Translations under genes and position numbers: made by a program
From: Treponema sp.
GTDB lineage: Bacteria > Spirochaetota > Spirochaetia > Treponematales > Treponemataceae
Assembly: GCA_022510885.1 (NCBI GenBank)
Contig: JAFLSP010000006.1
Coordinates: 1 to 28,454, forward strand
Direction of reading: 5' to 3'
Length of the DNA stretch: 28,454 nt
Notes under the pieces: generated by a model
What the model saw: only the letters and a program-made list of their open reading frames with translations
What the model was told of the DNA's origin: nothing
Database searches by the model: none
In this document: piece after piece, positions 8,726-21,780 of the stretch
How positions within the stretch are numbered: position 1 is the first letter of the stretch
How the letters are laid out: every line of letters begins with the position of its first letter

Positions 8726-8732
8726 GAAGAAC

Positions 8733-9212
8733 ATGGATTCCAATCTTCGCGAGCAGATGCAGCAGTTGTTTTCCTCCTCGGTTTTCCTTGCGTGCGTGTT
8801 CAGCTGGCTGAGCGCGCAGGTCATCAAGACGGTTATCAAGCTGTTCGGCGGGAACATCCATAGTATCGGAGAGCTGTTTGAGCTGCTCATCTGGCGCACG
8901 GGAAGCATGCCGTCGGCGCACTCCGCGTTGGTTTCGTCGCTGTGTACGTCCATTGGCTTTCGCTCGGGCATCGCCTCCGACGTGTTCGTCCTGTCCGCCT
9001 GTTTTTTTTTCGTGACGGTTCGCGACGCGCTGGGCGTGCGGCGCGCGAGCGGCATTCAGGCACGCACGCTGAACGAAATCGGCAGGACATTGCAGGAAAA
9101 AGGTGTCCATGACTATCGGCAGATAAAAGAAGTGCAGGGGCATACGCCGCTTGAGGTGTTCGTGGGCGTGCTGCTCGGTTTTTTCGTGGGCGTTGCCTTT
9201 TCAGTCTTGTGA
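8733..9212 (+). CDS. Divergent PAP2 family (DUF212, YuiD-like) membrane protein
   Basis: A 159-aa integral membrane protein of the DUF212 family, distantly related to PAP2 phosphatases. The signature is intact: a first membrane helix ending in WLSAQVIKTVIK, GSMPSAHSALVSSL at about residue 56, RDALGVRRASGIQARTLNEI, and VQGHTPLEVFVGVLLGFFVG near the end. Lipid-phosphate chemistry is suggested by the PAP2 relationship but is not proven for this family. The start is chosen at ATG 8733 from the promoter position; ATG 8724 would add three residues. A run of nine T at 9002-9010 lies in the coding sequence and could cause slippage. The stop is 18 nt before the next start, so it probably heads the rnf transcript. 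Confidence 0.88.
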   Translation: MDSNLREQMQQLFSSSVFLACVFSWLSAQVIKTVIKLFGGNIHSIGELFELLIWRTGSMPSAHSALVSSLCTSIGFRSGIASDVFVLSACFFFVTVRDALGVRRASGIQARTLNEIGRTLQEKGVHDYRQIKEVQGHTPLEVFVGVLLGFFVGVAFSVL

Positions 9213-9230
9213 CGCATGGTGGTGGGAGCG

Positions 9231-10613
9231 ATGAAAAATATTCGGACGATAATCCTTGCGGCCGCTGTCTGCGCCGTTGCGCTCGGTCTGTTTGCCACGT
9301 TCAGGACGATGCCGGCAAGCCGTCTGTGGAAAGGCTACCGCGTGCTGTGCGTCCGCTCCGGCACGGTAACGGACGAGCAGGTCTATGCGCTGCTGGAAAA
9401 CAGCGGGTGCAGGGACGTGGTGGCGCGGACGAATCAGGGTATCCCGCTTGTCTCCCGCTACAGCCCCGTGCAGGTGCAGGCGGCAGATTCCTACCTCGCA
9501 AAACGGAACGCCTTTTTCCGCGACGAGCGCGACGAGGCGATGGTGTTCTATGTCCCCGAAGGACAGGATGCCGCCCTGTCGCGCGCGCTTGATGACTTGC
9601 AGGCGGCGGGCGTAGCGGCAGCGACGGACGGCGCAGCATCGTTTCCTTGGATAAGTCCGGTTGTCTGTGCGGCGTTCGCGCTCGTCTGCGTCATTTTTGC
9701 CCGGCGGCGGCTCTCGCTTGCGGTCGCGCTCCTGTTTCTGCTCGCCTTTTCGGTTAGCCGCCCGTTCGCTACGACGAGCGCGGCGGTCTGCCTTGCAAGT
9801 TACGGCTTTTTCCTTTTGCAGAAGATTTGGGGACGGCACGGTTTCGTAAAAAGCGCGACGCGCCCGTTGGTCGTCGTCTGCCTCTGTGTGCCGGTGGTGC
9901 TGCTGTCCGTGTCGTCGCCGTTGGGAGCGTTGTTCTATGTGGTCGCGGTCGCGGCGGGCGGTTCTGCAGCCTTGCTTGCCGCCCAACTCAAAACCGTGTA
10001 TGATGAGAGACGTTCGCGCCTGTTCGCGCCCGTTCCTATCCGCAGCGCGCGGTTCGTTCCGCTTATCGAGCGTACTGACATGCGAGTCGTCGCATTGCTC
10101 GCACTTGCTGCGGCGGTCATGCTGGTGTTTTCGCTCATGCGTCCTGTGGCACGGTCAACGGCATCGTCGCTTCCGCCTGTCCCTGCGCCTGTCGCGGGTG
10201 CGGCACGGCTTCCCGACTGGGACGACTTCCTTGCATGGAGCTGGCAGACGGTCACGTTTCCGTACCGCCGCTTGTCTGACGGCGCAGCGGAGACGCCCGT
10301 TGAGGGCGAGCGCGTGGTCATGCGGGAGTACGCGGATGAGGGCGGCGTCATTGCGGAGCGCGAGCAGACGGCGTTCGTGTACAACGGCGCGTTCCGCAGC
10401 TCCGTGCATGATTCGGTGCGGAAGTTGCCGTATCCCGCATTGGAGAAGATGCTGCTGCGGCAGGGCAGGGACGCGCGCTATTCGTATGCGACGGGCGCGG
10501 GGTATGTGGGCGAACGGTTCGGCGTGCCGCTTCTGGCGGTGTTCGTGCTGATTCCTGCGGGAATCATCGGGTATGTGATGATGGCGAGAAAGCAGTATGG
10601 CATCAGTTTCTGA
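9231..10613 (+). CDS. Polytopic membrane protein of unknown function, encoded directly upstream of and overlapping rnfC
   Basis: A 460-aa protein. It has an N-terminal membrane helix (about 5-22), a soluble domain of about 100 residues, a block of several membrane helices (about 125-235), another helix near 285-303, a second soluble domain, and a C-terminal helix near 430-455. No known domain or catalytic motif was recognised. Its last 17 nt overlap rnfC, so the two are probably translated together and it may be an accessory subunit or assembly factor of the Rnf complex; that is inference. From memory, treponemes carry an unassigned gene at this place in their rnf clusters. ATG 9231 is preferred because GGTGGTGGGAG precedes it; ATG 9216 is in frame. 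Confidence 0.75.
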   Translation: MKNIRTIILAAAVCAVALGLFATFRTMPASRLWKGYRVLCVRSGTVTDEQVYALLENSGCRDVVARTNQGIPLVSRYSPVQVQAADSYLAKRNAFFRDERDEAMVFYVPEGQDAALSRALDDLQAAGVAAATDGAASFPWISPVVCAAFALVCVIFARRRLSLAVALLFLLAFSVSRPFATTSAAVCLASYGFFLLQKIWGRHGFVKSATRPLVVVCLCVPVVLLSVSSPLGALFYVVAVAAGGSAALLAAQLKTVYDERRSRLFAPVPIRSARFVPLIERTDMRVVALLALAAAVMLVFSLMRPVARSTASSLPPVPAPVAGAARLPDWDDFLAWSWQTVTFPYRRLSDGAAETPVEGERVVMREYADEGGVIAEREQTAFVYNGAFRSSVHDSVRKLPYPALEKMLLRQGRDARYSYATGAGYVGERFGVPLLAVFVLIPAGIIGYVMMARKQYGISF

Positions 10614-11895
10614 TTTTATTTCCGAGGACACGGGGGCATTCTCCTGCACGGTCAGCGCGTTCCTGCCGCGTGCCGCCATCGTGCCGTTCGATTGCGAGCC
10701 GAACGGGCGGTCGGACGTCCTGGTGCGCGCGGGCGACGTCGTGCGGGAAGGGCAGACGATTGCGCAGAGCACCTATAGTTCCGTGCAGGCGACGATTCCG
10801 GGAACGGTGGAGGCAGTCTCGGCAGTGCAACTCCCGGACGGAACGCTGGGGCAGGCGGCGACTATCAATTTGGGCGGGGCATTCTCTTTTACGGGGAAGC
10901 CGCGCCGCCGCATCGACTGGAATTTCTGCGAAATCGGCATGATACAGCGACTGCTTGCCGAACACGGCGTGGTCAACACATTCGCAGGATGCGAGCCGCT
11001 GTGTGCGCAGATACTGAACCTGCACCCGAGAAGCGCGCGCGTGCTCGCCGTGCGGCTTTTTGACGACGACCCCAGTCGCGTGACCGAGGCATTTATCGCG
11101 GAGCATCACGCGACGGAAGTCTGCGAGGGTGCGGCGATTGTCGCGAAAGCGATGGGGGCACGCGGTGTCGTATTCGCATACGGCGCGAGCGGGCATGGGG
11201 CGACATGGCACGGCGATGCCTCGTTCGCCGTGCCCGTGTGCGAGGTCGTCTGCGACACGACCCGCTATCCGGCAGGAACGCGGCACGATATTGTCGCCGC
11301 CGTAAAGCGGCAGTGCAAGGACGAGCCGTTCTCCGCTATCGGAAATCGCGACGTGTACATTGATGCGCCGACGGCATTGGCGGCATATCGTGCGGTCGCG
11401 CTTTCCACGCCGCTCATGGAGACCTATGTGCACGTGACCGGCGGCTGCCTGAACGCGGCGGCAATGATGCGCGTCAGAATCGGGACGACGCTGGGCGACC
11501 TTGCCGCGCAGTGCGGCGGTTTCAAGCGTCCCGTAGCGGGCATCGTGGTCAACGGCATCACGACGGGCTTTTCCGTGAGCAGCCTCGCTGTGCCGGTCAG
11601 CAAGATGGTGAAATCCGTGGCGTTTCTGCCAGCACGGAAGGCTCGGCGACAGCATGACGAGGAGTGCGTCCGCTGCGGCAGTTGCCGGAAAGTCTGCCCG
11701 GTCGGTCTGTATCCCGACATGTTCCGCCGTTCGTTCCTGCATGGGGCGGACGCAACTGAGCTGGAAAAGCGTTTCGCGGAGACGAGCGTGCTCTGTACCG
11801 ACTGCGCGTTGTGCAACGCGGTCTGCCCGGCGCGGCTTCCGCTCAGCCAGATTGCCGCGCTTTTGAAAGGAACCTATAATGATAATGAAGCATAG
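10597..11895 (+). CDS. rnfC: Rnf electron transport complex subunit C (divergent)
   Basis: RnfC is the peripheral Fe-S subunit that normally exchanges electrons with NADH. The 432-aa product has the N-terminal barrel-sandwich region (about 20-95), a central segment matching the family around FDDDPSRVTEAF and GAAIVAKAMGARGVVFA, and two C-terminal [4Fe-4S] motifs: Cys357, 360, 363, 367 and Cys400, 403, 406, 410, each CxxCxxCxxxCP. The glycine-rich GGAGFPT loop that binds FMN/NADH in canonical RnfC is not present; the corresponding stretch reads HGVVNTFAGCEP at 123-134. The GGPMMG element is likewise replaced by NGITTG. This suggests loss or change of NADH use. It overlaps the upstream and downstream genes by 17 nt each. 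Confidence 0.85.
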   Translation: MASVSDFISEDTGAFSCTVSAFLPRAAIVPFDCEPNGRSDVLVRAGDVVREGQTIAQSTYSSVQATIPGTVEAVSAVQLPDGTLGQAATINLGGAFSFTGKPRRRIDWNFCEIGMIQRLLAEHGVVNTFAGCEPLCAQILNLHPRSARVLAVRLFDDDPSRVTEAFIAEHHATEVCEGAAIVAKAMGARGVVFAYGASGHGATWHGDASFAVPVCEVVCDTTRYPAGTRHDIVAAVKRQCKDEPFSAIGNRDVYIDAPTALAAYRAVALSTPLMETYVHVTGGCLNAAAMMRVRIGTTLGDLAAQCGGFKRPVAGIVVNGITTGFSVSSLAVPVSKMVKSVAFLPARKARRQHDEECVRCGSCRKVCPVGLYPDMFRRSFLHGADATELEKRFAETSVLCTDCALCNAVCPARLPLSQIAALLKGTYNDNEA

Positions 11896-12955
11896 ATTTA
11901 CGACGGTCTCATTGCGACCATACACGTATCTCGCGCCGTCCGTGCAGACCAAAGGATGCGCCTTCCTGCTCGTGCTGTTGCCGCACGTGTGCTTGCTGTT
12001 TCTCACGCACAGTTGGGGCGCGCTTGGCGTGGTAGCGGGCGCAGTGCTCGCGTCGTTTGCCGTGACGGGCATCGGCTGCTGCTTCGCGCGTCCGGGCGCA
12101 TTCGTTTGGGTCGCCGCGCTCGTGCGGGGGCTGGTCATCGGGTTGCTCGTGCCGTCGTCCTATCCGCCGCTGGCGGTGTTTTTGGTCGCGCTGTGCGTAC
12201 TGTTGCTGTGCGCGCACGTCCTCGGCGGTTTTACGGACGCATGGGTGAATCCCGTCGCGCTGACGGTGGCAGTCTGCTGGCTTTTGCGTACCGACTTATT
12301 TCCCGCGCTCGCGCTTGGCGCGGAGGACTTGCAGACGCAGAACGTCGCGCTCGCGCTTATCCAGGACGGCACGTTCCCGGTAATGGGCGCAGATACGCGG
12401 ATTACGGCGTTCCTGAACAAAAACGTGTTCGGCATTTTCGGCGTGTCCATTCCCGAGGGCTACGTGTCGCTCCTGTGGGATTCGCACGCGCCCGTTGCGG
12501 CATTCCGCTTCAACCTGCTTACATTGGTCACGTCGGTGGTCCTCATCTCCTTTGACATCGTGAGCGCGCTCGTTCCGGCGGTCTACCTTGCGGTCTACGC
12601 GCTGCTCGTGCGCTTCCTCGCGCCGATGTGCTATGGCGGGACGGTGGGGCAGGGCGATATGCTGTTCGCCCTGCTGACGAGCGGGACGCTGTTCTGCACG
12701 TTGTTCCTGCTGCAATGGTATGGCACGACCCCGGTAACGGCGGCGGGAAAAGTCGCCTACGGGATTTTCGCGGGCGTGGCGGCGTTCCTCATCGTGGGGG
12801 CGGGCGGCTCGGGCGCAGGGTCGGCGTTCACGATATTGGTTATGAACGTGGTTTCTCCGCTCATCGTCGCGGCGGAGACGGCGGCAGAAAAGCAGTATCT
12901 GCACGCGCTGCTCCTGCCACGGGTGCGGGCTTTCAAGGACGGTCATCATGCTTGA
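11879..12955 (+). CDS. rnfD: Rnf electron transport complex subunit D (divergent)
   Basis: A 358-aa membrane protein of the RnfD/NqrB family. Recognisable parts are the N-terminal SLRPYTYLAPSVQTKG, GGFTDAWVNPVALTVAV at about 120-136, PEGYVSLLWD, and the C-terminal FLLQWYGTTPVTAAGK followed by a glycine-rich helix and ILVMNVVSPLI. Canonical RnfD/NqrB carries a covalently bound FMN on Thr of an SGAT-type motif; I find no such motif, only DTRITAFLNKNVFG in the matching loop. An AAAGG ribosome binding site lies 8 nt before ATG 11879, inside rnfC. The 3' end overlaps rnfG by 8 nt. Confidence 0.85.
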   Translation: MIMKHRFTTVSLRPYTYLAPSVQTKGCAFLLVLLPHVCLLFLTHSWGALGVVAGAVLASFAVTGIGCCFARPGAFVWVAALVRGLVIGLLVPSSYPPLAVFLVALCVLLLCAHVLGGFTDAWVNPVALTVAVCWLLRTDLFPALALGAEDLQTQNVALALIQDGTFPVMGADTRITAFLNKNVFGIFGVSIPEGYVSLLWDSHAPVAAFRFNLLTLVTSVVLISFDIVSALVPAVYLAVYALLVRFLAPMCYGGTVGQGDMLFALLTSGTLFCTLFLLQWYGTTPVTAAGKVAYGIFAGVAAFLIVGAGGSGAGSAFTILVMNVVSPLIVAAETAAEKQYLHALLLPRVRAFKDGHHA

Positions 12956-13427
12956 GAACGAGATGAAAGCGGCGCTCAAGAAGTATGGCATCTTCCTCGG
13001 CATCCTCGCGGGCATGACGGCACTTGTTCTGTGCTCCGTTCTGCTCGCGCGCGGGTCATGGCGGCGCGGACTTGCGCTGGCCGTGCAGGAGACGCTCGAC
13101 GCGCACTATCCCGACACCTATGCCGTGGGCAATTTTATGGACATCAGCGCGCCCATCGCCACGAGCGCGGCGGTCTTTTCCGTGCGTCCGCGTCGGGCAA
13201 ACACGACGGAGCTGTCCGCTTACTGCGTCATCGTGCGGATGCCTACGCTTGCCGGTGCCGCGCCCGCGCTGTTCTTGTACAGCCCGCGCGCTGGCGCGCA
13301 GTTTGTCGGTTACGCGCTCGACCCGGGCAAGGCAGCGCACGTCATGAACGCCACCGTGCAGCGCAGTATGATTGCGTACTGGCAGAAACAGGTGCCGCTC
13401 ATCTTGGGAAAGGCGGGGGTACGATGA
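12948..13427 (+). CDS. rnfG: Rnf electron transport complex subunit G-like protein (short)
   Basis: A 159-aa protein assigned to RnfG mainly from its place between rnfD and rnfE and its layout: one N-terminal membrane helix (about 12-34) and an extracytoplasmic domain. The family usually has about 200 residues and a covalent FMN attached to Thr in a D-x-x-SGAT-x-S/T motif. Here the best candidate is VMNATVQRS at 132-140, with Thr136 as the possible attachment residue; the Asp and the Ser-Gly are missing. Whether it still carries flavin is open. AAGGA lies 8 nt before ATG 12948, and the stop forms ATGA with rnfE. Confidence 0.65.
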   Translation: MLENEMKAALKKYGIFLGILAGMTALVLCSVLLARGSWRRGLALAVQETLDAHYPDTYAVGNFMDISAPIATSAAVFSVRPRRANTTELSAYCVIVRMPTLAGAAPALFLYSPRAGAQFVGYALDPGKAAHVMNATVQRSMIAYWQKQVPLILGKAGVR

Positions 13428-14041
13428 GAAACAGAACCATCTATTTCTACGTGGCGGCATCGCTTGCGACCGTCGTTCCCGTTCCCGGCAGGCTCGCGTT
13501 CGGACTGCTGATGGTCGTGCTCTTCAATATCCAGGTTGTGACGGGCGTACTGACCTGCCACCTCGCGGCGCGGCTCAAATTGGACGATTTGCAGCGCGTG
13601 ATTGTCTCGGTGGAGCTGATTGCGATAACTATCCTGTACAAGCAGCTTGTCATGCTCGTGTGTCCCGTCGCCGCGCTCACGCTGGGCTTCCTCATCTATC
13701 TTCCCGCGCTCTCCTCGGCAGTCATCGAGTTCTCCTATAAAAACAACGTGGGAACGCTGGCGGAAGACCTGAAAGAAAAGGCGGCGCGCAACGGCGTGTT
13801 CTCGGCGGTCGCGCTCGCGCTCTTTTTCGTGCGCGACACCATTGGATTCGGCACGGTGACGTTTCCCGCCTGGCAGCGGATTGCGGCGGCGCATCTGCCC
13901 GTGTTTCCGGGTACCGCGGCTGTCGGAGCGTTTCTTGCGACCGTGCCGGGCGCGTTCGTGCTTGCCGCGCTTCTGCTCGCGCTGTATCTGTTCGTCACAG
14001 GGCAGTTCGCCAGAATCGCGCGCGCGGGAGGTGGGCAATAA
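13424..14041 (+). CDS. rnfE: Rnf electron transport complex subunit E (divergent)
   Basis: A 205-aa polytopic membrane protein of the RnfA/RnfE (NqrD/NqrE) family, identified by position, hydrophobicity and the segment VRDTIGFGTVTFP, which corresponds to the REIxGxGT region of RnfE. Canonical RnfE supplies two cysteines to an intramembrane [2Fe-2S] site, in GLCP near the N-terminus and in a PNC/TNC motif after the middle. In this protein the first position aligns with VAASLATVVP and no Cys exists after residue 80; the only cysteines are 45 and 80. The start ATG overlaps the rnfG stop (ATGA), and the stop overlaps rnfA (TAATG). Confidence 0.8.
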   Translation: MRNRTIYFYVAASLATVVPVPGRLAFGLLMVVLFNIQVVTGVLTCHLAARLKLDDLQRVIVSVELIAITILYKQLVMLVCPVAALTLGFLIYLPALSSAVIEFSYKNNVGTLAEDLKEKAARNGVFSAVALALFFVRDTIGFGTVTFPAWQRIAAAHLPVFPGTAAVGAFLATVPGAFVLAALLLALYLFVTGQFARIARAGGGQ

Positions 14042-14601
14042 TGCTTGCGGCGGTCATTTACTACGTGCTTTCTGCCTCGGCGTTCCTGCTTTACGGCATC
14101 GGGCTGCACAATCTGCTCGCGGCGAACAGCAGCTACGGTTCGCTCGTCCTGACGGGCACGAAATCGCTCATCACGGTGACGATGACGGTTTCGGTCTCCT
14201 ATGTAATCGTCGGCACGGTGCTCGCGCCCGCGCAGCTTTCGGAGCTGTTTCCGCTGGTGGCAGTCCTCGTGTTCGTCTTGTTCTCCGCGGTCATCGAAGT
14301 CTTTGTGGGCATCGGCCTGCAAACTTCAATGACCGAATTCGGCGTACCGCTGCTGTGCGTGTTGCTCGCGCTCAATGAGGCGTCGTCCATCGGTGCGGCG
14401 GTCATCATTGCCATCTCGTGCGTGGCGGCGTTCTACCTGCTGTGCGGCATCATGTTCGCGCTGCGCAGCCGCTTTTCGCTGTTCGCGCCCGCGCCGGGAC
14501 TGCGGGTTTACTGCCTGCTGCTCGTGAGCCTTGCGGTTATCCTCATCGCGCTGAGCGCGTTCAACGTCTCGTGGCTCACGCAGCTGGGAGGCACGGAATG
14601 A
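14041..14601 (+). CDS. rnfA: Rnf electron transport complex subunit A (divergent)
   Basis: A 186-aa protein with about six membrane helices. It lines up without gaps with the N-terminus of E. coli RsxA as I remember it: the FLGLCPFMGVSKK stretch corresponds to YGIGLHNLLAANSS, so the first cluster cysteine is His23. The second conserved cysteine, in LPLITTNC, corresponds to VPLLCVLL at 102-109, where the matching residue is Leu109 and a Cys sits three places earlier (Cys106). Later parts (AAFYLLCGIMFALRSRF) match the family helix before the final loop. It is coupled to rnfE by TAATG and to rnfB by ATGA. Confidence 0.8.
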   Translation: MLAAVIYYVLSASAFLLYGIGLHNLLAANSSYGSLVLTGTKSLITVTMTVSVSYVIVGTVLAPAQLSELFPLVAVLVFVLFSAVIEVFVGIGLQTSMTEFGVPLLCVLLALNEASSIGAAVIIAISCVAAFYLLCGIMFALRSRFSLFAPAPGLRVYCLLLVSLAVILIALSAFNVSWLTQLGGTE

Positions 14602-15143
14602 TTTTTGCCATCCTGATGCTCGTCGTCTTCCTTGTCGTGGCGAGCGGCTTCGCGTTCTTCTTCTTTTGTTTTTTTGTGCCCGCGCTCAAGTCAAAGTATT
14701 ACGGCGTGTCCACGATTCTTTCTGCCGAAAAGGAAGTCGGCTACGAGGCGGAGAAAGAGGACGCGGTGCACGGCGACCCGACCAGGCGCGCCGTCATCGT
14801 CACCGCGCGGAAAGAGGAGGGCGCCCGCCGCCTGACCTACGCGGGCATGAGAAACTGCGCCGTCTTTCATGCGGCATACAAGACCGAATACCACGACTTC
14901 CACGGCTGCGCGGGGTTCGGCGACTGCGCGGCAGTCTGCCACCAGAACGCCATCGAGCTTGAGGACGGCATCGCCGTCGTGACGGACTTGTGCGACGGGT
15001 GCGGCGCGTGCATAAGCGCGTGTCCCGCGCGGCTGGTTTCGCTCGTAAAAAAAGACGGAACCGAGGACATTCCGTCAAAAAAACGTTGTACATTTTGGCG
15101 TAATTGGTATAGAATGGTACAATCGAGGTTAGGGAGGAGTTAG
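14598..15143 (+). CDS. rnfB: Rnf electron transport complex subunit B, short form
   Basis: RnfB is the ferredoxin-facing Fe-S subunit. This version is only 181 aa: an N-terminal membrane helix (about 3-28), a linker, then a ferredoxin-like module. The second cluster motif is standard (Cys132, 135, 138, 142, then Pro). The first has only Cys104, Cys110 and Cys114; where clostridial-type RnfB has a Cys four residues before the first of these there is Asp100, and the Pro after the last Cys is replaced by His. The separate N-terminal Fe-S domain of typical RnfB (260 or more aa) is absent. GGGAGG lies about 7 nt before ATG 14598. It closes the rnf chain. Confidence 0.8.
   Translation: MIFAILMLVVFLVVASGFAFFFFCFFVPALKSKYYGVSTILSAEKEVGYEAEKEDAVHGDPTRRAVIVTARKEEGARRLTYAGMRNCAVFHAAYKTEYHDFHGCAGFGDCAAVCHQNAIELEDGIAVVTDLCDGCGACISACPARLVSLVKKDGTEDIPSKKRCTFWRNWYRMVQSRLGRS
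15095..15123 (+). promoter_or_regulatory. Promoter of the GH57-like gene, inside the 3' end of rnfB
   Basis: TTGGCG (15095-15100, 4 of 6) and TACAAT (15118-15123, 5 of 6) are separated by 17 bp; an alternative TTGTAC/TATAGA pair lies about 10 bp earlier. Transcription should begin near 15130, directly at a strong AGGGAGGAG (15131-15139). That ribosome binding site is followed after 6 nt by TTG and then TAA (15146-15151), a start-stop pair, before the GTG at 15155 and ATG at 15188 of the gene. Confidence 0.5.
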
Positions 15144-15187
15144 CGTTGTAAGTTGTGCAGGGTGGGGCGCAGCACTCGTTTCTTTTT

Positions 15188-17173
15188 ATGAAAGTGTTGC
15201 ATATCTGCATGGCGGTTACGGCCGGTTCTTTGGGCACTACGCCCGCCGCGCTGGAGGAAGCGTACCAGCGTTCATACAAGAAAATCATCTCGTTTCTCTC
15301 TGCCAATCCTGCGTTTCGGCTGTCGCTCTCGTTTTTCGGTCCGACGTTTACCTGGCTCGCAAAGAAACATCCCGAATGCGTCACGCTCCTCAAGGAACTT
15401 CTGCACCGCAAGCAGATTGAAATGCTCGGCGGCGGCTACTACAATCCGCTGTTCCCGCTGTTGCTTCCCCTGGACAGGAGCGGGCAGATTGAACGCTATA
15501 CGGCGGAGCTGACCGGCGCGCTCGGCAGGCGTCCGCGCGGCATGACCGTGTACGGCTCAGTGTGGGACAACGGCATCGTGCCGAACCTGCATACATGCGG
15601 CATGGAATACGTGCTGCTCGACGCTTCGCTCATCGCGCCGGAAAAACGCACGGGCGTGCCGCTGCTTGTCACCGAGCAGGGCAAGTCCATTACCGTTTTT
15701 CCCGTCTTCCGCACGGACGTGCTGCCCGACCAGTCGGTTTCCCCCGCATCCTACCTTGCCGCGCTCAAGCATGAGGCGGAATCTTCGTTCGGAAACACGG
15801 AATTCCCCGTGCTCACGCTGACGTGCGATGCGGAGACCTTCGCCGCGCGCTGCGAGGACGGCTGGATGTCCGCGTTGCAGGAAACGCTGCAAGCCAGTGC
15901 CGAAAGCGTCGTGCTGACGACGGCGCAGGAATACCGCAGGCGGCACACGGCGGTGCGTCCCGCCTACATCGCGGCGGGCGTGCAGGCGGACATCGCGCAG
16001 TGGGGCATCGTTCCGTACACGCCGCACCAGCGTCCGTCAGGCTATCCCGTGACGATTTACGACTTTCTGGAGGCCTATCCGCGCAACCACGCCCTCTACA
16101 ACCGCGTGCTCTACGTCAGCACGCTTATCGCGAACTACCGCGCCGACAAGATGCGCAAGAAAAGCGCGCGGGAGAAGCTGTGGCAGGCGCAGACGGGCGA
16201 AGCCTTCGTGTGCAACCCGCAGGGCATATTCGCCACCAACGCCATCCGTCAGAACGCCTACCGCGCGCTGACCGAAGCGGAGAAAATCCTGCGCGAAGGA
16301 CTGCCCTCGTTCTCCGGCTGCGTGACGAGCTACGACTACGACGCGGACGGCAACGCCGAGTACATCTGCCAGATGCCGTCCTTCGATGCCTGCATCTCGC
16401 TCAAAGGCGCGAGCATCACCGAGCTTGACATCATGCACAACACGGGCAACTACGCCGACAACCTCAAGCGCATCGGGCAGTTTGACCGCGTGAGCGACAC
16501 CTACGAGCGCGGCCTCTTCGTGGACCATCTCTTCTCGCCCGAAGAATACCGGGCATATCAGCAGGGACAGCCGACGGGAAGCGGCATCTTCTCGCGCGTC
16601 GTCTTCGCGCAGGCGGGATTCAACCGCAGGCGGCGCGAAATCAGGCTCGTCGGCACGGACGAATTCGGCGCGCTCTCCCAGCCGGTCACGCTGCGCAAGC
16701 AATATGTCATCAACGACAACGGCTTTACCGTGCAGTACATCCTCAAGAACGAAAGCCCGCACGCGCTCAAGGCGCGGTTCGTGGTGGAGTCAAATTTCGC
16801 GCAGACTGACTTCTCCCGCGCGGACAGCAACAAGTATGCCGTTGCCGTTATCTCCGGGGGCGAAAAAGGCGATTTGGACGCGCAGAAAACGCCGGGAAGC
16901 AGCCCGGACGTGTCCTTCCTTCAGATTACCGACACGGCAAACGACATTTCGTTCGTCTACGAGCCGAACGAGGACGCATCCGTCACCTGTATGCCGCTGT
17001 TTTTCCGGCGACCGGGCGCGGACGGCGCGATGCACGTGGCAGGCACGACCTTCGTCGCCGCATTGAGCTGGGACGTTGAGCTTGCGGCGGGCGGCGAGAT
17101 GGAGAAGAGCGTCGCGTTCACGGTCATCATCCCCAAGAAGCGGAAGAAGCGCAAGCCGGACAACATTGCCTAA
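15188..17173 (+). CDS. GH57-family protein (4-alpha-glucanotransferase-like), probably lacking the catalytic nucleophile
   Basis: A 661-aa cytoplasmic protein related to GH57 4-alpha-glucanotransferases, with the catalytic barrel in the first 300 residues and a C-terminal all-beta part like DUF1926. The signature KQIEMLGGGYYNPLFPLL at 75-92 and the WxNGIVPNLHTCGMEYVLLD stretch at 126-145 fix the family. In Thermococcus litoralis glucanotransferase Glu123 is the nucleophile in an ERVW sequence; here the same place reads GSVW with Gly123. The acid/base Asp214 is retained (CDAETF). It may therefore be inactive, glycan-binding, or use another residue. ATG 15188 begins the conserved MKVLHICMAVTAG; GTG 15155 would add 11 residues. 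The last residues are strongly basic (KKRKKRK). Confidence 0.75.
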   Translation: MKVLHICMAVTAGSLGTTPAALEEAYQRSYKKIISFLSANPAFRLSLSFFGPTFTWLAKKHPECVTLLKELLHRKQIEMLGGGYYNPLFPLLLPLDRSGQIERYTAELTGALGRRPRGMTVYGSVWDNGIVPNLHTCGMEYVLLDASLIAPEKRTGVPLLVTEQGKSITVFPVFRTDVLPDQSVSPASYLAALKHEAESSFGNTEFPVLTLTCDAETFAARCEDGWMSALQETLQASAESVVLTTAQEYRRRHTAVRPAYIAAGVQADIAQWGIVPYTPHQRPSGYPVTIYDFLEAYPRNHALYNRVLYVSTLIANYRADKMRKKSAREKLWQAQTGEAFVCNPQGIFATNAIRQNAYRALTEAEKILREGLPSFSGCVTSYDYDADGNAEYICQMPSFDACISLKGASITELDIMHNTGNYADNLKRIGQFDRVSDTYERGLFVDHLFSPEEYRAYQQGQPTGSGIFSRVVFAQAGFNRRRREIRLVGTDEFGALSQPVTLRKQYVINDNGFTVQYILKNESPHALKARFVVESNFAQTDFSRADSNKYAVAVISGGEKGDLDAQKTPGSSPDVSFLQITDTANDISFVYEPNEDASVTCMPLFFRRPGADGAMHVAGTTFVAALSWDVELAAGGEMEKSVAFTVIIPKKRKKRKPDNIA

Positions 17174-17194: not shown

Positions 17195-17220
17195 GTCCTA
17201 TCCTAGTTCTGGTGGATTTT

Positions 17221-20200
17221 ATGGCTGAAACACAGTGTACGCCGGCAGCAAAGCCTGTCCGCATGGGAATCGACGTCGGCTCGACCACGGTAAAGGTCGT
17301 CGCGCTCGACGACAACGACGCTTTCTTGTTCGAGGCGTATGAGCGGCACCGCGCCGACATCCGCAACACGATTATCACGGTGGTCGGACGCGCGCTCGAC
17401 AGGCTGGAGGCCCTGCTTCCCGAAAAAGACCGGCGTACCGTCAGCCTGCGTGTCACCGGCTCGGGCGGGCTTTCCGTTTCTCAGTGGCTCGGCATTCCCT
17501 TTGTGCAAGAAGTGGTCGCCGCGACGACTGCCGTCAGGAGGCTCATCCCGCAGACCGACGTGGTGATTGAGCTGGGCGGCGAGGACGCGAAAATCACGTA
17601 TTTTGCCGGCGGCGTGGAGCAGCGCATGAACGGCACCTGCGCGGGCGGCACGGGCGCGTTCATCGACCAGATGGCGGCCTTGCTGGAGACGGACGCGACG
17701 GGGCTCAACGAACTGGCAAAGGGCGCGACCACGATTTACCCGATAGCCGCGCGCTGCGGCGTGTTCGCCAAGACGGACGTGCAGCCGCTCATCAACGAGG
17801 GCGCGCGGCGCGAGGACATCGCCGCGTCCATCTTCCAGGCGGTAGTGAGCCAGACGATTGGCGGGCTTGCCTGCGGCAAGCCGATTCGCGGCAACGTGGC
17901 GTTCCTCGGCGGCCCGCTGCACTTCCTTGACCAGCTGCGCCACCGCTTTATCGAGACCCTGCGCCTTGAGGGCGACGCAATCATCGTCCCGGAAAACTCG
18001 CAGCTGTTCGTGGCGGCGGGAAGCGCGTTCAATGCCGAGCCGCACGCCGCGCCCCTGGCGGAAAAGGACGGGGAAACCTATCCCACGATTGCGCAGGTCC
18101 GCGCGAACCTGCAAAACCTTGTGGGCGCGGAACTGAACGAAGTCGCCCGCCTGGAGCCGCTCTTCAAGAACCAGGAAGAACTGGACGAATTCACCGCGCG
18201 CCACGCAAAAGAGACCACGGAAACCGCCCCGCTTGCCGACGCGACCGGCCCGCTCTTCCTCGGCCTTGATGCCGGCTCGACCACGACCAAGGCCGTCCTC
18301 ATTGACCAGAAGGGACGCATCCTCTGGCGGTTCTACGACGTGAACGCGGGCAATCCCGTCGATGTGGCGGTGCGGGTGCTCAAAGACTTGTATGCCATCC
18401 TCCCCAAGCACGCCTACATCGCGCGCTCGGTCTCCACGGGCTACGGCGAGGCCCTGTTCCAGGCCGCGCTCGGCGTGGACGCGGGCGAGGTGGAGACGAT
18501 AACGCACTACCGCGCCGCCGATTTCTTCGTTCCCGGCGTGGAGTTCCTGCTCGACATCGGCGGGCAGGACATGAAGTGTCTGCGCATGAAGGACGGCGCA
18601 ATCAACTCGATTCAGCTCAACGAGGCGTGTTCGGCGGGCTGCGGGTCGTTCTTGGAGAATTTCGCGCGCTCAATGGGCATGGACGTGCGCGAGTTCAGCA
18701 AAATCGCGCTGCTTGCGCAGAAGCCCGTGGATTTGGGCAGCCGCTGCACGGTCTTTATGAACAGCCGCGTCAAGCAGGCGCAGAAAGAGGGCGCGACGAT
18801 TGCCGACATCAGCGCGGGGCTGTCGTACTCGGTCATCAAGAACGCGCTGTTCAAGGTCATCAAACTGCGGCGCGCGAGCGAAATCGGCACGAAGGTCGTG
18901 GTGCAGGGCGGCACCTTCAGCAACGACGCGGTGCTGCGCGCCTTTGAGAAAGTGGCGGGCGTGAACGTCTACCGTCCGGACGTGGCGGGGCTGATGGGCG
19001 CATACGGTTCGGCATTGATTGCCTGCGACCAGTGGCGTGACCTGACCGCGCCCAAGCCGGGGCAGGAGAAGGGCTGGGTTCCGCCCAAGGTCGTGTCGAA
19101 CATCGCCACGGTCGAGCAGCTGGAGACGTTCAAGGTCGATTTGGAGCTGACGCGCTGCGGCGGCTGCCAGAACAACTGCCTGCTTACGATTAACAAATTC
19201 TCCACGGGCGGCACGGTGCGCCAGTTCATCACGGGAAACCGTTGCGAAAAGGGGCTGGAGCGGCATCAGCTTGCGGACGCGCAGACGCTTGGCGGTCAGA
19301 ACAAAGAGCGCGAGGACGAGGGCGTGGAGCTGCCCAATCTGTTCGACTGGAAATACAAGCGGCTCTTTCAGCACTACGCGCCGTTGCGGCCGGAGGACGC
19401 GCCGATGGGGGCGGTGGGCATTCCGCGCGTGCTCAACATGTACGAGAACTATCCGCTGTGGTTCACGGTTTTCACCAAGTTGGGCTTTCAGGTGCGGCTC
19501 AGTCCGCGCTCAAACCGCATGGTCTACGAGCGCGGCATCGATTCCATTCCCTCCGAGTCGGTCTGTTATCCGGGGAAAATCTCGCACGGGCATTTGGAGT
19601 CGCTCATCAAGATGGGCTGCTCGTTCATTTTCTATCCCTGCGTGCCGTATGAGAAAAAGGAAGACAAGGGGGCGGGCAACCACTTCAACTGCCCCGTCGT
19701 CACGAGTTACCCCGAGGTGCTGAAGAACAACATCGACGAGTTGCGCGAGAACGGCGACCTGCTGTTCATGAATCCCTTTCTGCCGATTTACGACAAGCCG
19801 CGCCTGTGCGAGCGGTTCTACGAGGAGATGCACGCTCACTTCCCGCAGCTTTCCAAGGAGGCGGTCTTTGCGGCGGTGGAGGCGGGCTGGGACGAGCAGG
19901 AGCAGTTCAAGCGCGAGGTGGAGCGCGCGGCGGAGGACGCGCTTGAGCAGTTGGTCGTGACGGGCGGAAGCGGCGTGGTGCTTGCGGGGCGGCCCTACCA
20001 TCTCGACCCCGAAATCAACCACGGCATCCCGGAGATGATTCACGGGCTGGGGCTTGCGGTCTTTACGGAGGATTCCGTGGCGCACCTGGGCAACGTGGAG
20101 CGTCCCTTGCGCATCATCGACCAGTGGTCGTACCACAACCGCCTGTACCGCGCGGCGAATTTCGTGGCGGGAATGCCCAACCTGGAGCTGGTACAACTTA

Positions 20201-21780
20201 CGTCGTTCGGCTGCGGGCTTGACGCGGTGACGGCCGACCAGGTGGACGAAATCATGCGCTCAAAGAGCCGGATGTACACGCTCATCAAGATTGACGAAGG
20301 CTCGAACCTCGGCGCGATTCGTATCCGCATCCGCTCGCTCATCGCGGCGGTCAAGGCGCGGCAGCGCAATCCGCGCAAAGTCATCAAGAAGTCTGCGGCA
20401 TATCAGCGCACGGTCTTCACCGAGGAGATGAAGGGCGAGTACACGATTCTCTGTCCGCAGATGAGCCCGATTCATTTCCGGCTTATAGAAAAGGCCTTCC
20501 AGTATTCGGGCTACAACTTCGTCGTCATGGACGCGGTTGACCCCAAGGCGGTCGAGGCGGGGCTGAAATACGTGAACAACGACGCCTGCTATCCGTCCAT
20601 CCTGGTGACGGGGCAGATGATTGCGGCGCTGGAGAGCGGCAAGTACGACATCAACAAGACGGCGCTCATCATGAGCCAGACCGGCGGCGGCTGCCGCGCC
20701 ACGAACTACATCGGCTTCATCCGGCGCGCGCTCAACGACGCGGGCTGGGGGCATATCCCCGTCATCTCGATGAGCGTGCAGGGCTTCGAGAAGAACCCGG
20801 GCTGGACGTATTCCCCCAAAATGATAAACCGCGGGCTGATGGCGATGTTCATCGGCGACGTGCTGATGCGCGTGCTGTACCGCGTGCGCCCCTACGAGCG
20901 GGAGCCGGGCAGCGCGAACGCGCTCTACGAGAAATGGAACGAGAAGGCGACGGAGATGCTCAAGGATGCGTCGTTCCTCGCGTACCGAAAAATTATCCGC
21001 GGCATCATCAAAGATTTTGACCATCTGCCGATTCTGCCGGTCAAAAAGCCGCGCATGGGCGTGGTCGGCGAGATTCTGGTCAAATTCCACCCGACGGCGA
21101 ACAACGACATCGTGGACGTGATTGAGCGCGAGGGCGCGGAGTGCGTCATGCCCGACTTCATGGACTTTTTCTTCTACGCGATGAGCGACGGCGTGTTCCT
21201 GCACCGGCAGCTCGCGTTCCCCAAAAAAGAGGAGCGGATGTCGCGCTTCCTGATTTGGGCGCTCGGCTTGTACCGCCACTACACGATTCGCCAGCTCAGG
21301 CGCAGCCGCCGCTTTGACGCGCCTGCTTCTATTTGGAAAATGATGAAACTGGTGGACGGCATCGTGCAGACGGGCAACATCTCCGGCGAGGGCTGGTTCC
21401 TGACGGCGGAAATGGTGGAGCTGATTCACGGCGGCGCGCCCACGGTGGCGTGCATCCAGCCCTTCGCGTGCCTGCCCAACCACATCACGGGCAAGGGTGT
21501 CATCAAGGAGCTGCGCAAGCGGTATCCCGAATCGAACATCGCGGCAATCGACTACGACCCCGGCGCGTCCGAGGTCAACCAGCTGAACCGCCTGAAGCTG
21601 CTTTTGAGCAACGCGCCCATCGGCAAGAACCCGGACGAGATGAAAAATGGAAAAATCTGGACACGCTCGGGGCCAGTTGAGCCGATAATACAATATGCGG
21701 CGGGCGGGGGCGCGTTCATTGACGACGACCCGGTAAGCGCGCTGAACATTCCTGCGGCGACGAGCGAAGTCTCCGCGTGA
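17221..21780 (+). CDS. Giant CoA-dehydratase activase-type protein with two BadF/BcrA ATPase domains and a DUF2229 region
   Basis: A 1519-aa protein. The first ASKHA ATPase domain begins GIDVGSTTVKVVALDD near residue 16 and the second LGLDAGSTTTKAVLID near 345. Each keeps the cysteine pair that ligates a [4Fe-4S] cluster between subunits in 2-hydroxyacyl-CoA dehydratase activases: Cys140/Cys179 and Cys470/Cys509. A Cys-rich segment (RCGGCQNNCLL near 645) leads to a DUF2229-like region (PRVLNMYENYPLWF near 730) and a long C-terminal part resembling the HgdB/HgdA-type fold (MSQTGGGCRATNY, NDACYPSILVTGQM). The family couples ATP hydrolysis to low-potential electron transfer; the substrate of this fused form is not known. 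Reduced ferredoxin is a likely electron source, which links it to the rnf genes nearby. GTG 17212 is an alternative start. Confidence 0.88.
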   Translation: MAETQCTPAAKPVRMGIDVGSTTVKVVALDDNDAFLFEAYERHRADIRNTIITVVGRALDRLEALLPEKDRRTVSLRVTGSGGLSVSQWLGIPFVQEVVAATTAVRRLIPQTDVVIELGGEDAKITYFAGGVEQRMNGTCAGGTGAFIDQMAALLETDATGLNELAKGATTIYPIAARCGVFAKTDVQPLINEGARREDIAASIFQAVVSQTIGGLACGKPIRGNVAFLGGPLHFLDQLRHRFIETLRLEGDAIIVPENSQLFVAAGSAFNAEPHAAPLAEKDGETYPTIAQVRANLQNLVGAELNEVARLEPLFKNQEELDEFTARHAKETTETAPLADATGPLFLGLDAGSTTTKAVLIDQKGRILWRFYDVNAGNPVDVAVRVLKDLYAILPKHAYIARSVSTGYGEALFQAALGVDAGEVETITHYRAADFFVPGVEFLLDIGGQDMKCLRMKDGAINSIQLNEACSAGCGSFLENFARSMGMDVREFSKIALLAQKPVDLGSRCTVFMNSRVKQAQKEGATIADISAGLSYSVIKNALFKVIKLRRASEIGTKVVVQGGTFSNDAVLRAFEKVAGVNVYRPDVAGLMGAYGSALIACDQWRDLTAPKPGQEKGWVPPKVVSNIATVEQLETFKVDLELTRCGGCQNNCLLTINKFSTGGTVRQFITGNRCEKGLERHQLADAQTLGGQNKEREDEGVELPNLFDWKYKRLFQHYAPLRPEDAPMGAVGIPRVLNMYENYPLWFTVFTKLGFQVRLSPRSNRMVYERGIDSIPSESVCYPGKISHGHLESLIKMGCSFIFYPCVPYEKKEDKGAGNHFNCPVVTSYPEVLKNNIDELRENGDLLFMNPFLPIYDKPRLCERFYEEMHAHFPQLSKEAVFAAVEAGWDEQEQFKREVERAAEDALEQLVVTGGSGVVLAGRPYHLDPEINHGIPEMIHGLGLAVFTEDSVAHLGNVERPLRIIDQWSYHNRLYRAANFVAGMPNLELVQLTSFGCGLDAVTADQVDEIMRSKSRMYTLIKIDEGSNLGAIRIRIRSLIAAVKARQRNPRKVIKKSAAYQRTVFTEEMKGEYTILCPQMSPIHFRLIEKAFQYSGYNFVVMDAVDPKAVEAGLKYVNNDACYPSILVTGQMIAALESGKYDINKTALIMSQTGGGCRATNYIGFIRRALNDAGWGHIPVISMSVQGFEKNPGWTYSPKMINRGLMAMFIGDVLMRVLYRVRPYEREPGSANALYEKWNEKATEMLKDASFLAYRKIIRGIIKDFDHLPILPVKKPRMGVVGEILVKFHPTANNDIVDVIEREGAECVMPDFMDFFFYAMSDGVFLHRQLAFPKKEERMSRFLIWALGLYRHYTIRQLRRSRRFDAPASIWKMMKLVDGIVQTGNISGEGWFLTAEMVELIHGGAPTVACIQPFACLPNHITGKGVIKELRKRYPESNIAAIDYDPGASEVNQLNRLKLLLSNAPIGKNPDEMKNGKIWTRSGPVEPIIQYAAGGGAFIDDDPVSALNIPAATSEVSA

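Follow-up and report, generated by a model that had tools for sequence, protein, structure and literature searches.

What does an Rnf complex do once the ligands of the iron-sulfur cluster in its membrane core are gone? This question is raised by a stretch of 28,454 nucleotides from a Treponema species (GenBank assembly GCA_022510885.1, contig JAFLSP010000006.1; the window), in which an rnf-like operon encodes RnfE and RnfA proteins with no cysteine aligned to the four ligand positions of the intramembrane [2Fe-2S] site. It is a second operon, standing beside canonical Rnf in many relatives, and its cysteine loss is graded across the order; an earlier interpretation made from the letters of the window alone (the sequence-only reading) had seen neither point. 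Kept across many spirochaetes, the second operon probably has a role different from the usual one of Rnf, as judged from sequence. We consider it likely that it encodes a second spirochaete complex, derived from Rnf, in which transmembrane electron transfer has been given up, and the new function that the sequence-only reading had entertained is supported as likely. The titles and abstracts listed in literature searches contained no description of RnfA/RnfE without cysteines.

A cited passage (PMC9588780) assigns the metal site of solved Rnf to Cys25/Cys113 of RnfA and Cys26/Cys109 of RnfE and calls these residues invariant; according to another (PMC11889175), the site was observed as a [2Fe-2S] cluster. 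We set the cysteine columns by six canonical spirochaete Rnf sets, one of which (cG058) was aligned to solved structures, its cysteines corresponding to Cys26/Cys109 of RnfE (7zc6_E) and Cys25/Cys113 of RnfA (9eri_A); a profile alignment to 8ahx_E placed the RnfE columns alike. The alignment held 87 pairs, namely the six controls, all with four cysteines, and 81 second-operon pairs. At the four columns the window reads Ala15 and Ser98 in RnfE and His23 and a gap in RnfA, and none of the 30 same-genus pairs has a cysteine at any of them, so that the ligand loss claimed from the sequence alone is borne out. Also as claimed, RnfE has no cysteine at the first position and none after residue 80, Cys45 and Cys80 being its only ones. 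For RnfA, His23 stands; Leu109 could not be confirmed as the second position, because that column is a gap in the whole of the window's family (f1; f2–f4 are three other families of the order). The three RnfA cysteines that had been listed (Cys106, Cys127 and Cys135) are present, and a fourth, Cys158, exists as well.

Across the 81 second-operon pairs, four cysteines were found in 5, three in 2, two in 1, one in 15 and none in 58; G287 (two RnfE cysteines) and five f5 rows (one cysteine) lack an RnfA partner and enter these counts as they stand. Eight of the 87 aligned RnfE domains contain no cysteine whatsoever. Two rows were dropped, G007 (RnfE split over two contigs) and cG056 (an incomplete control); two imperfect RnfE rows, G002 (frame broken in the assembly) and G035 (partial), were retained.

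Could other residues of the window serve as ligands? The sequence-only reading had named one outcome that would overturn it, Cys45/Cys80 of RnfE and Cys106/Cys127/Cys135 of RnfA lying at the cluster site; this outcome is rejected. Cys80 of RnfE is shared by 9 of 30 orthologues and Cys106 of RnfA by 4, and Cys45 and Cys135 by fewer than 3 each, which is poor conservation for a ligand. The best conserved, Cys127 of RnfA (23/30), sits on the next helix of the model (117–148) and is rejected too; the models are of single chains, and the first RnfA helix is of low confidence. A replacing histidine, another suggestion made from the sequence alone, is rejected as well: the first RnfA position is Asn in 18 orthologues, Glu in 4, His in 2 and others in 6, with N, E, H, D, K, T, L and S all occurring.

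The proteins are not recognized easily. As single sequences, the RnfE, RnfA and RnfG-like proteins of the window gave no significant Pfam or NCBIfam match, and RnfE and RnfA gave no sequence match in the PDB. The identity of RnfE and RnfA comes from iterated profiles, operon order and fold. The RnfE profile, which includes relatives with the cysteines kept, aligned to 8ahx_E with an expectation value (E) of 2.5e-22, and predicted models of the window proteins show the six-helix fold and match RnfE/NqrD and RnfA/NqrE, each to the correct subunit.

How widespread is the operon, and how old? Canonical RnfA/RnfE (PF02508) are found in 24 of the 36 same-genus genomes and the second-operon RnfE and RnfA in 31, 21 of which have both systems and 10 the second only; the window's own genome (88% complete) gave no PF02508 match. 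The gene order of the second operon is found again in f2, f3, f4 and f5, further families of the order. It fits 77 of 81 loci when missing genes are allowed, the other 4 having overlapping frames swapped (rnfG not counted). A tree of RnfC plus RnfD (85 rows, built by a quick method; RnfE and RnfA did not enter it, and G170 and G162 were excluded) separates the six canonical sets from all second-operon sets with a Shimodaira-Hasegawa-like approximate likelihood ratio (SH-aLRT) of 100, and f1, f3, f4 and f5 each form a single group (100, 98, 91 and 100, respectively). This split and the single family groups indicate that the second operon is an old rnf duplicate, vertically inherited. Outside the order, G313, G354 and G436 have the operon up to rnfA; their RnfE, read by eye, has lost both ligands (GLAP or GLIP; VVGS), and in G313 and G354 another cysteine lies three residues before the first site. 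A weak RnfA-like match in G058 (contig C48, L102; E 0.0097) was dropped, its region showing no rnf operon among the frames. G018, presumed to be Treponema berlinense (99% complete), has a stripped complex without rnfB and gave neither a PF02508 nor an ApbE match.

The cysteines appear to have been lost stepwise and more than once. All four are kept in G036 (f2), G037 and G040 (f3), and G047 and G055 (f4); three remain in G044 and G038 (Ala at RnfE position 1), one in G054 and none in G089 (f3) and G050 (f4), and every row of f1 and f5 has at most two. On the tree, "both RnfA cysteines" (13/85 rows, controls included) and "all four" (11/85) each need at least three changes. With canonical Rnf taken as the older state, we interpret these changes as losses inside f3, inside f4 and close to the stem of f1 and f5.

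The other cofactor sites have fared unequally. First, the two [4Fe-4S] motifs of RnfC are present in the window and in 80 of 80 scored rows. The GG of the loop for flavin mononucleotide (FMN) and reduced nicotinamide adenine dinucleotide (NADH) is found in 6/6 controls and in none of the 79 second-operon rows covering it; for GxGGAGFP and ECEPY the window has NTFAGCEPL and RLFDDDPSR. The f2/f3 rows have both ECEPY glutamates in 4 of 5 cases; the other 75 scored rows (one of which, G170, does not cover the site) do not have them, and f1 proteins often read close to RLFDEDPSRxTDS here. Second, the RnfD motif S/TxxTPL is present in 9/10 f2–f4 rows, absent from all 71 f1/f5 rows and absent in the window. 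The pattern is strict (3/6 controls found, yet 6/6 with Thr in the aligned column); it replaces the Thr column of the MAFFT alignment, which was misled by a long f2–f4 insertion (Thr in 0/10 rows there, and in 3/53 f1 rows without the motif). The riboflavin-contact Asp of RnfD is lost in 30/30 same-genus rows, being Trp in 27 and other letters in 3. Third, the RnfG-like sequence of the window, read directly as its frame was missed by the RnfG scan, has no covalent FMN threonine motif. A GA[T/S]-type motif was found in G036, G040, G054 and G089; it was seen neither in the G037, G044 and G038 frames nor in any of the 52 f1/f5 frames located among the 60 loci listed; 8 of those 60, the window's included, yielded no RnfG frame, 11 more f1/f5 loci lay outside the list, and the frames of G055 and G050 were not rnfG. 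In the canonical RnfG of G046, G058 and G048 (L132, L136, L137), we observed TASTITS in place of the expected flavinylation motif SGATITS. Fourth, RnfB lacks the N-terminal CGxCG motif in 37/37 f1 rows that have the protein, and RnfB itself was not found in 5/29 same-genus, 10/23 other f1 and 16/17 f5 loci reaching past rnfA (G012 and G162 not counted, their contigs ending directly behind rnfA).

Several observations weigh against a complete loss of redox function. The partner column of the second RnfA cysteine is uncertain where f1 shows its gap. The GLCP cysteine (RnfE position 1) is kept in 10/23 f1 genomes outside the window's genus, and 5/18 f5 genomes have a cysteine at RnfE position 2; with this single RnfE cysteine, some metal binding would be possible there. 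The riboflavin-site Asp of RnfD is kept in 17/18 f5 and 9/23 other-genus f1 rows. A TGAS string occurs in the f5 frame of G182 between rnfD and rnfE, and 3/6 canonical RnfG controls show TAST rather than SGAT/TGAT, so the motif is not strict. RnfB, where present, keeps its [4Fe-4S] motifs. Finally, ApbE was found in 10 of 11 genomes tested, including the window's; the flavinylation machinery has therefore not vanished.

Both genes are intact, overlap their neighbors and follow rnf order, as had been said and as frames and coordinates bear out, and they evolve under purifying selection. Pairwise ratios of nonsynonymous to synonymous substitution (dN/dS, Nei-Gojobori) were 0.073–0.232 for RnfE and 0.042–0.256 for RnfA, rough values from 12 pairs each with dS near saturation and two pairs being f4 with 3–4 cysteines; one canonical pair gave 0.040. 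RnfB rows for genomes without rnfB were RnfC matches and were disregarded. These ratios indicate that the stripped RnfE and RnfA are constrained, mostly less than their canonical counterparts. New residues are also conserved. RnfE position 23, eight residues past the lost first cysteine, is Arg in 18/18 f5 and Arg/His/Lys in 48/53 f1 rows, and basic in 0/6 canonical and 0/10 f2–f4 rows. RnfA position 99 is Glu/Asp in 50/53 and position 41 Lys/Arg in 45/53 f1 rows, neither being seen in the 6 controls or shared by f5; all these counts share descent and are not independent. Constraint has thus moved to new residues, a pattern that favors a reused site over a decaying one.

We would explain the data as follows. 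An ancestral rnf duplicate would have lost, in steps, the FMN/NADH site of RnfC, the [2Fe-2S] cluster of RnfA/RnfE and the sites for flavin in both RnfD and RnfG. With these motifs missing, the cluster would be unable to form, electrons could not cross the membrane here, and the complex would not be a ferredoxin:NAD+ redox pump; by the known Rnf mechanism, no electron would pass along RnfB–RnfA/E–RnfG–RnfD–RnfC, because the cluster and both FMNs would be absent. What the remaining parts do is a more tentative matter. It is possible, if somewhat short of even, that RnfC, with RnfB if present, serves as a membrane-anchored cytoplasmic Fe-S module for electron transfer or redox sensing, RnfA/E and RnfD with their new charges forming a scaffold or an RnfC-gated ion path. 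It is conceivable, though we hold it with reserve, that the RnfA/E hourglass, with its Arg (RnfE 23) and acids (RnfA 99 and 113), acts as an ion or solute pathway or a conformational relay under control of the RnfC Fe-S clusters, as the sole Rnf relative in the presumed Treponema pallidum.

Among the alternatives, the one that survives best, although we think it rather unlikely, is continued transport of ions or a solute by the membrane core, in which RnfA/E or RnfD would change conformation in response to the redox state of RnfC/RnfB, or of another partner, and no electron would cross. The RnfA/E fold is kept in predictions, new conserved charges lie near the old cluster site, the Fe-S motifs of RnfC are never lost, and cited passages tie alternating access of RnfA/E to the cluster (PMC11889175, PMC12174285); however, no conserved ion-site residue was found, and the same-genus RnfD rows have all lost the riboflavin-site Asp. 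Quite improbable, in our judgment, is a working Rnf-type redox pump whose site has other ligands (His, Asp/Glu) or holds a mononuclear metal. His23 of the window and the new conserved acids near the site in f1 would suit it, but the residue at the first RnfA position is variable, and with the neighboring flavin sites also lost a metal would be left without redox partners. For the same reason, the other electron route through the core that the sequence-only reading had considered is not supported: besides the cluster, the core has lost the flavin motifs flanking it on either side, and RnfC has lost its FMN/NADH loop. That the genes are rnf relics turning into pseudogenes, as the stepwise loss of cofactor sites and rnfB might suggest, is rejected on the dN/dS values well below 1 and the breadth of occurrence, including 31/36 same-genus genomes and a genome of 1.14 Mb in which no canonical RnfA/RnfE was matched; the earlier view that decay is unlikely agrees with this. 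Misannotation has next to no probability, for the missing single-sequence matches are outweighed by the RnfE/NqrD profile match, subunit-correct folds, rnf gene order and orthologues with intact cysteines.

The preferred reading, a second Rnf-derived complex that gave up transmembrane electron transfer, can be set beside known systems. Canonical RnfABCDGE (Acetobacterium woodii 9eri, Clostridium tetanomorphum 7zc6, Azotobacter vinelandii 8ahx) shares with it the order C-D-G-E-A-B, the predicted RnfE/RnfA folds and the two [4Fe-4S] motifs of RnfC. Unlike canonical Rnf, the second complex lacks the [2Fe-2S] cysteines, the FMN motifs of RnfD/RnfG and the RnfC FMN/NADH loop, its RnfB is reduced or absent, and its operon adds a DUF212 gene and P, a membrane protein gene, at the head and a GH57 gene at the end. 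The Na+-translocating NADH:quinone oxidoreductase (Na+-NQR, NqrABCDEF) has itself been proposed, in a passage of PMC4014512, to stem from an rnf duplication followed by loss of RnfB and some of the cofactors, and both systems would thus be rnf duplicates with cofactor loss. In contrast, NQR emptied NqrA and kept the membrane wire, whereas the second operon emptied the wire and kept the Fe-S motifs of RnfC. Its RnfC-type subunit with two [4Fe-4S] motifs and its last subunit, RnfB-like rather than NqrF-like, place it outside Na+-NQR.

Table 1. Genes of the second rnf operon in the window.
Feature	Position	Strand	Remarks
DUF212 ("divergent PAP2") gene	8730..9212	+	head of conserved operon; PF02681 E 3.4e-37; start approximate
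P, 465-amino-acid multi-span membrane protein, no known family	9216..10613	+	overlaps rnfC; no Pfam match; operon marker
rnfC-like	10597..11895	+	two [4Fe-4S] motifs kept; FMN/NADH loop (GxGGAGFP, ECEPY) lost; TIGR01945 143 bits (cut-off 246)
rnfD-like	11879..12955	+	PF03116 E 9.9e-31; no SGAT flavinylation motif left; Trp in place of the riboflavin-site Asp
rnfG-like, short (159 amino acids)	12948..13427	+	placed by operon position; no family match; without SGAT-type motif
rnfE-like (205 amino acids)	13424..14041	+	neither [2Fe-2S] cysteine kept (Ala15, Ser98); Arg23 newly conserved
rnfA-like (186 amino acids)	14041..14601	+	neither [2Fe-2S] cysteine kept (His23, gap); Lys41, Glu99 and Glu113 newly conserved
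rnfB-like	14598..15143	+	ferredoxin-type [4Fe-4S] motifs kept; N-terminal CGxCG motif absent
GH57 family protein	15155..17173	+	closes conserved gene order; PF03065 E 5.9e-22

P may be a partner subunit of the complex. In a phylum-wide sample of 198 genomes its profile has matches in 28, one of them the window genome, and in most second operons P stands between DUF212 and rnfC (Table 1); G061 has no P match, and the P match of G018 (L107) contains one TAG. In a class-level relative, G425 (contig C1, L264), DUF212, P and GH57 lie next to one another without any rnf match in between; the rnf part can thus disappear entirely. On the 3' side of the operon (17212–21780), the window encodes a protein of 1522 amino acids that reads like a fused 2-hydroxyacyl-CoA dehydratase activator.

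An Rnf complex has also been proposed for T. pallidum, reportedly by Deka et al. 2015. One genome of the window's family, G061 (one contig of 1,139,633 bases, 99% complete), has its rnfD at about 173.9–175.0 kb and is taken here as T. pallidum, because this gene covers position 174177, where a cited passage (PMC6103504) places, in the coordinates of another strain, a variant in TPASS_20151, RnfD. G061 has the second-operon type, with rnfD over the variant position of the counterpart of TP0151, itself annotated RnfD. Its RnfE and RnfA have none of the four cysteines, its RnfC has two [4Fe-4S] motifs, and no PF02508 or rnfB match and no SGAT in the RnfG-like protein were found. ApbE is present, so its targets in G061, as in the window genome, lie elsewhere or escape recognition. 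In the published passages, T. pallidum Rnf is a flavin-dependent or flavodoxin-oxidizing ion pump (PMC7512555, PMC10194888, PMC11371664); unlike that pump, the G061 sequence is without cluster and flavin motifs. It argues against a flavin-based Rnf pump in a G061-type genome and leaves the acetogenic enzymes untouched.

The finding describes a whole lineage of Rnf relatives without the cluster cysteines and flavin motifs, with living intermediates that have 4, 3, 1 and 0 cysteines, and it offers a natural experiment on what Rnf membrane parts can do in the absence of electrons. It is relevant to the energy economy of the syphilis spirochaete, for which the model in the cited passages has Rnf oxidizing flavodoxin and building an ion gradient (PMC7512555, PMC11371664); if our reading is true, T. 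pallidum would be without any Rnf redox pump. The presumed T. berlinense, cultured and carrying the stripped complex with no canonical RnfA/RnfE or ApbE match, makes the question approachable outside the pathogen.
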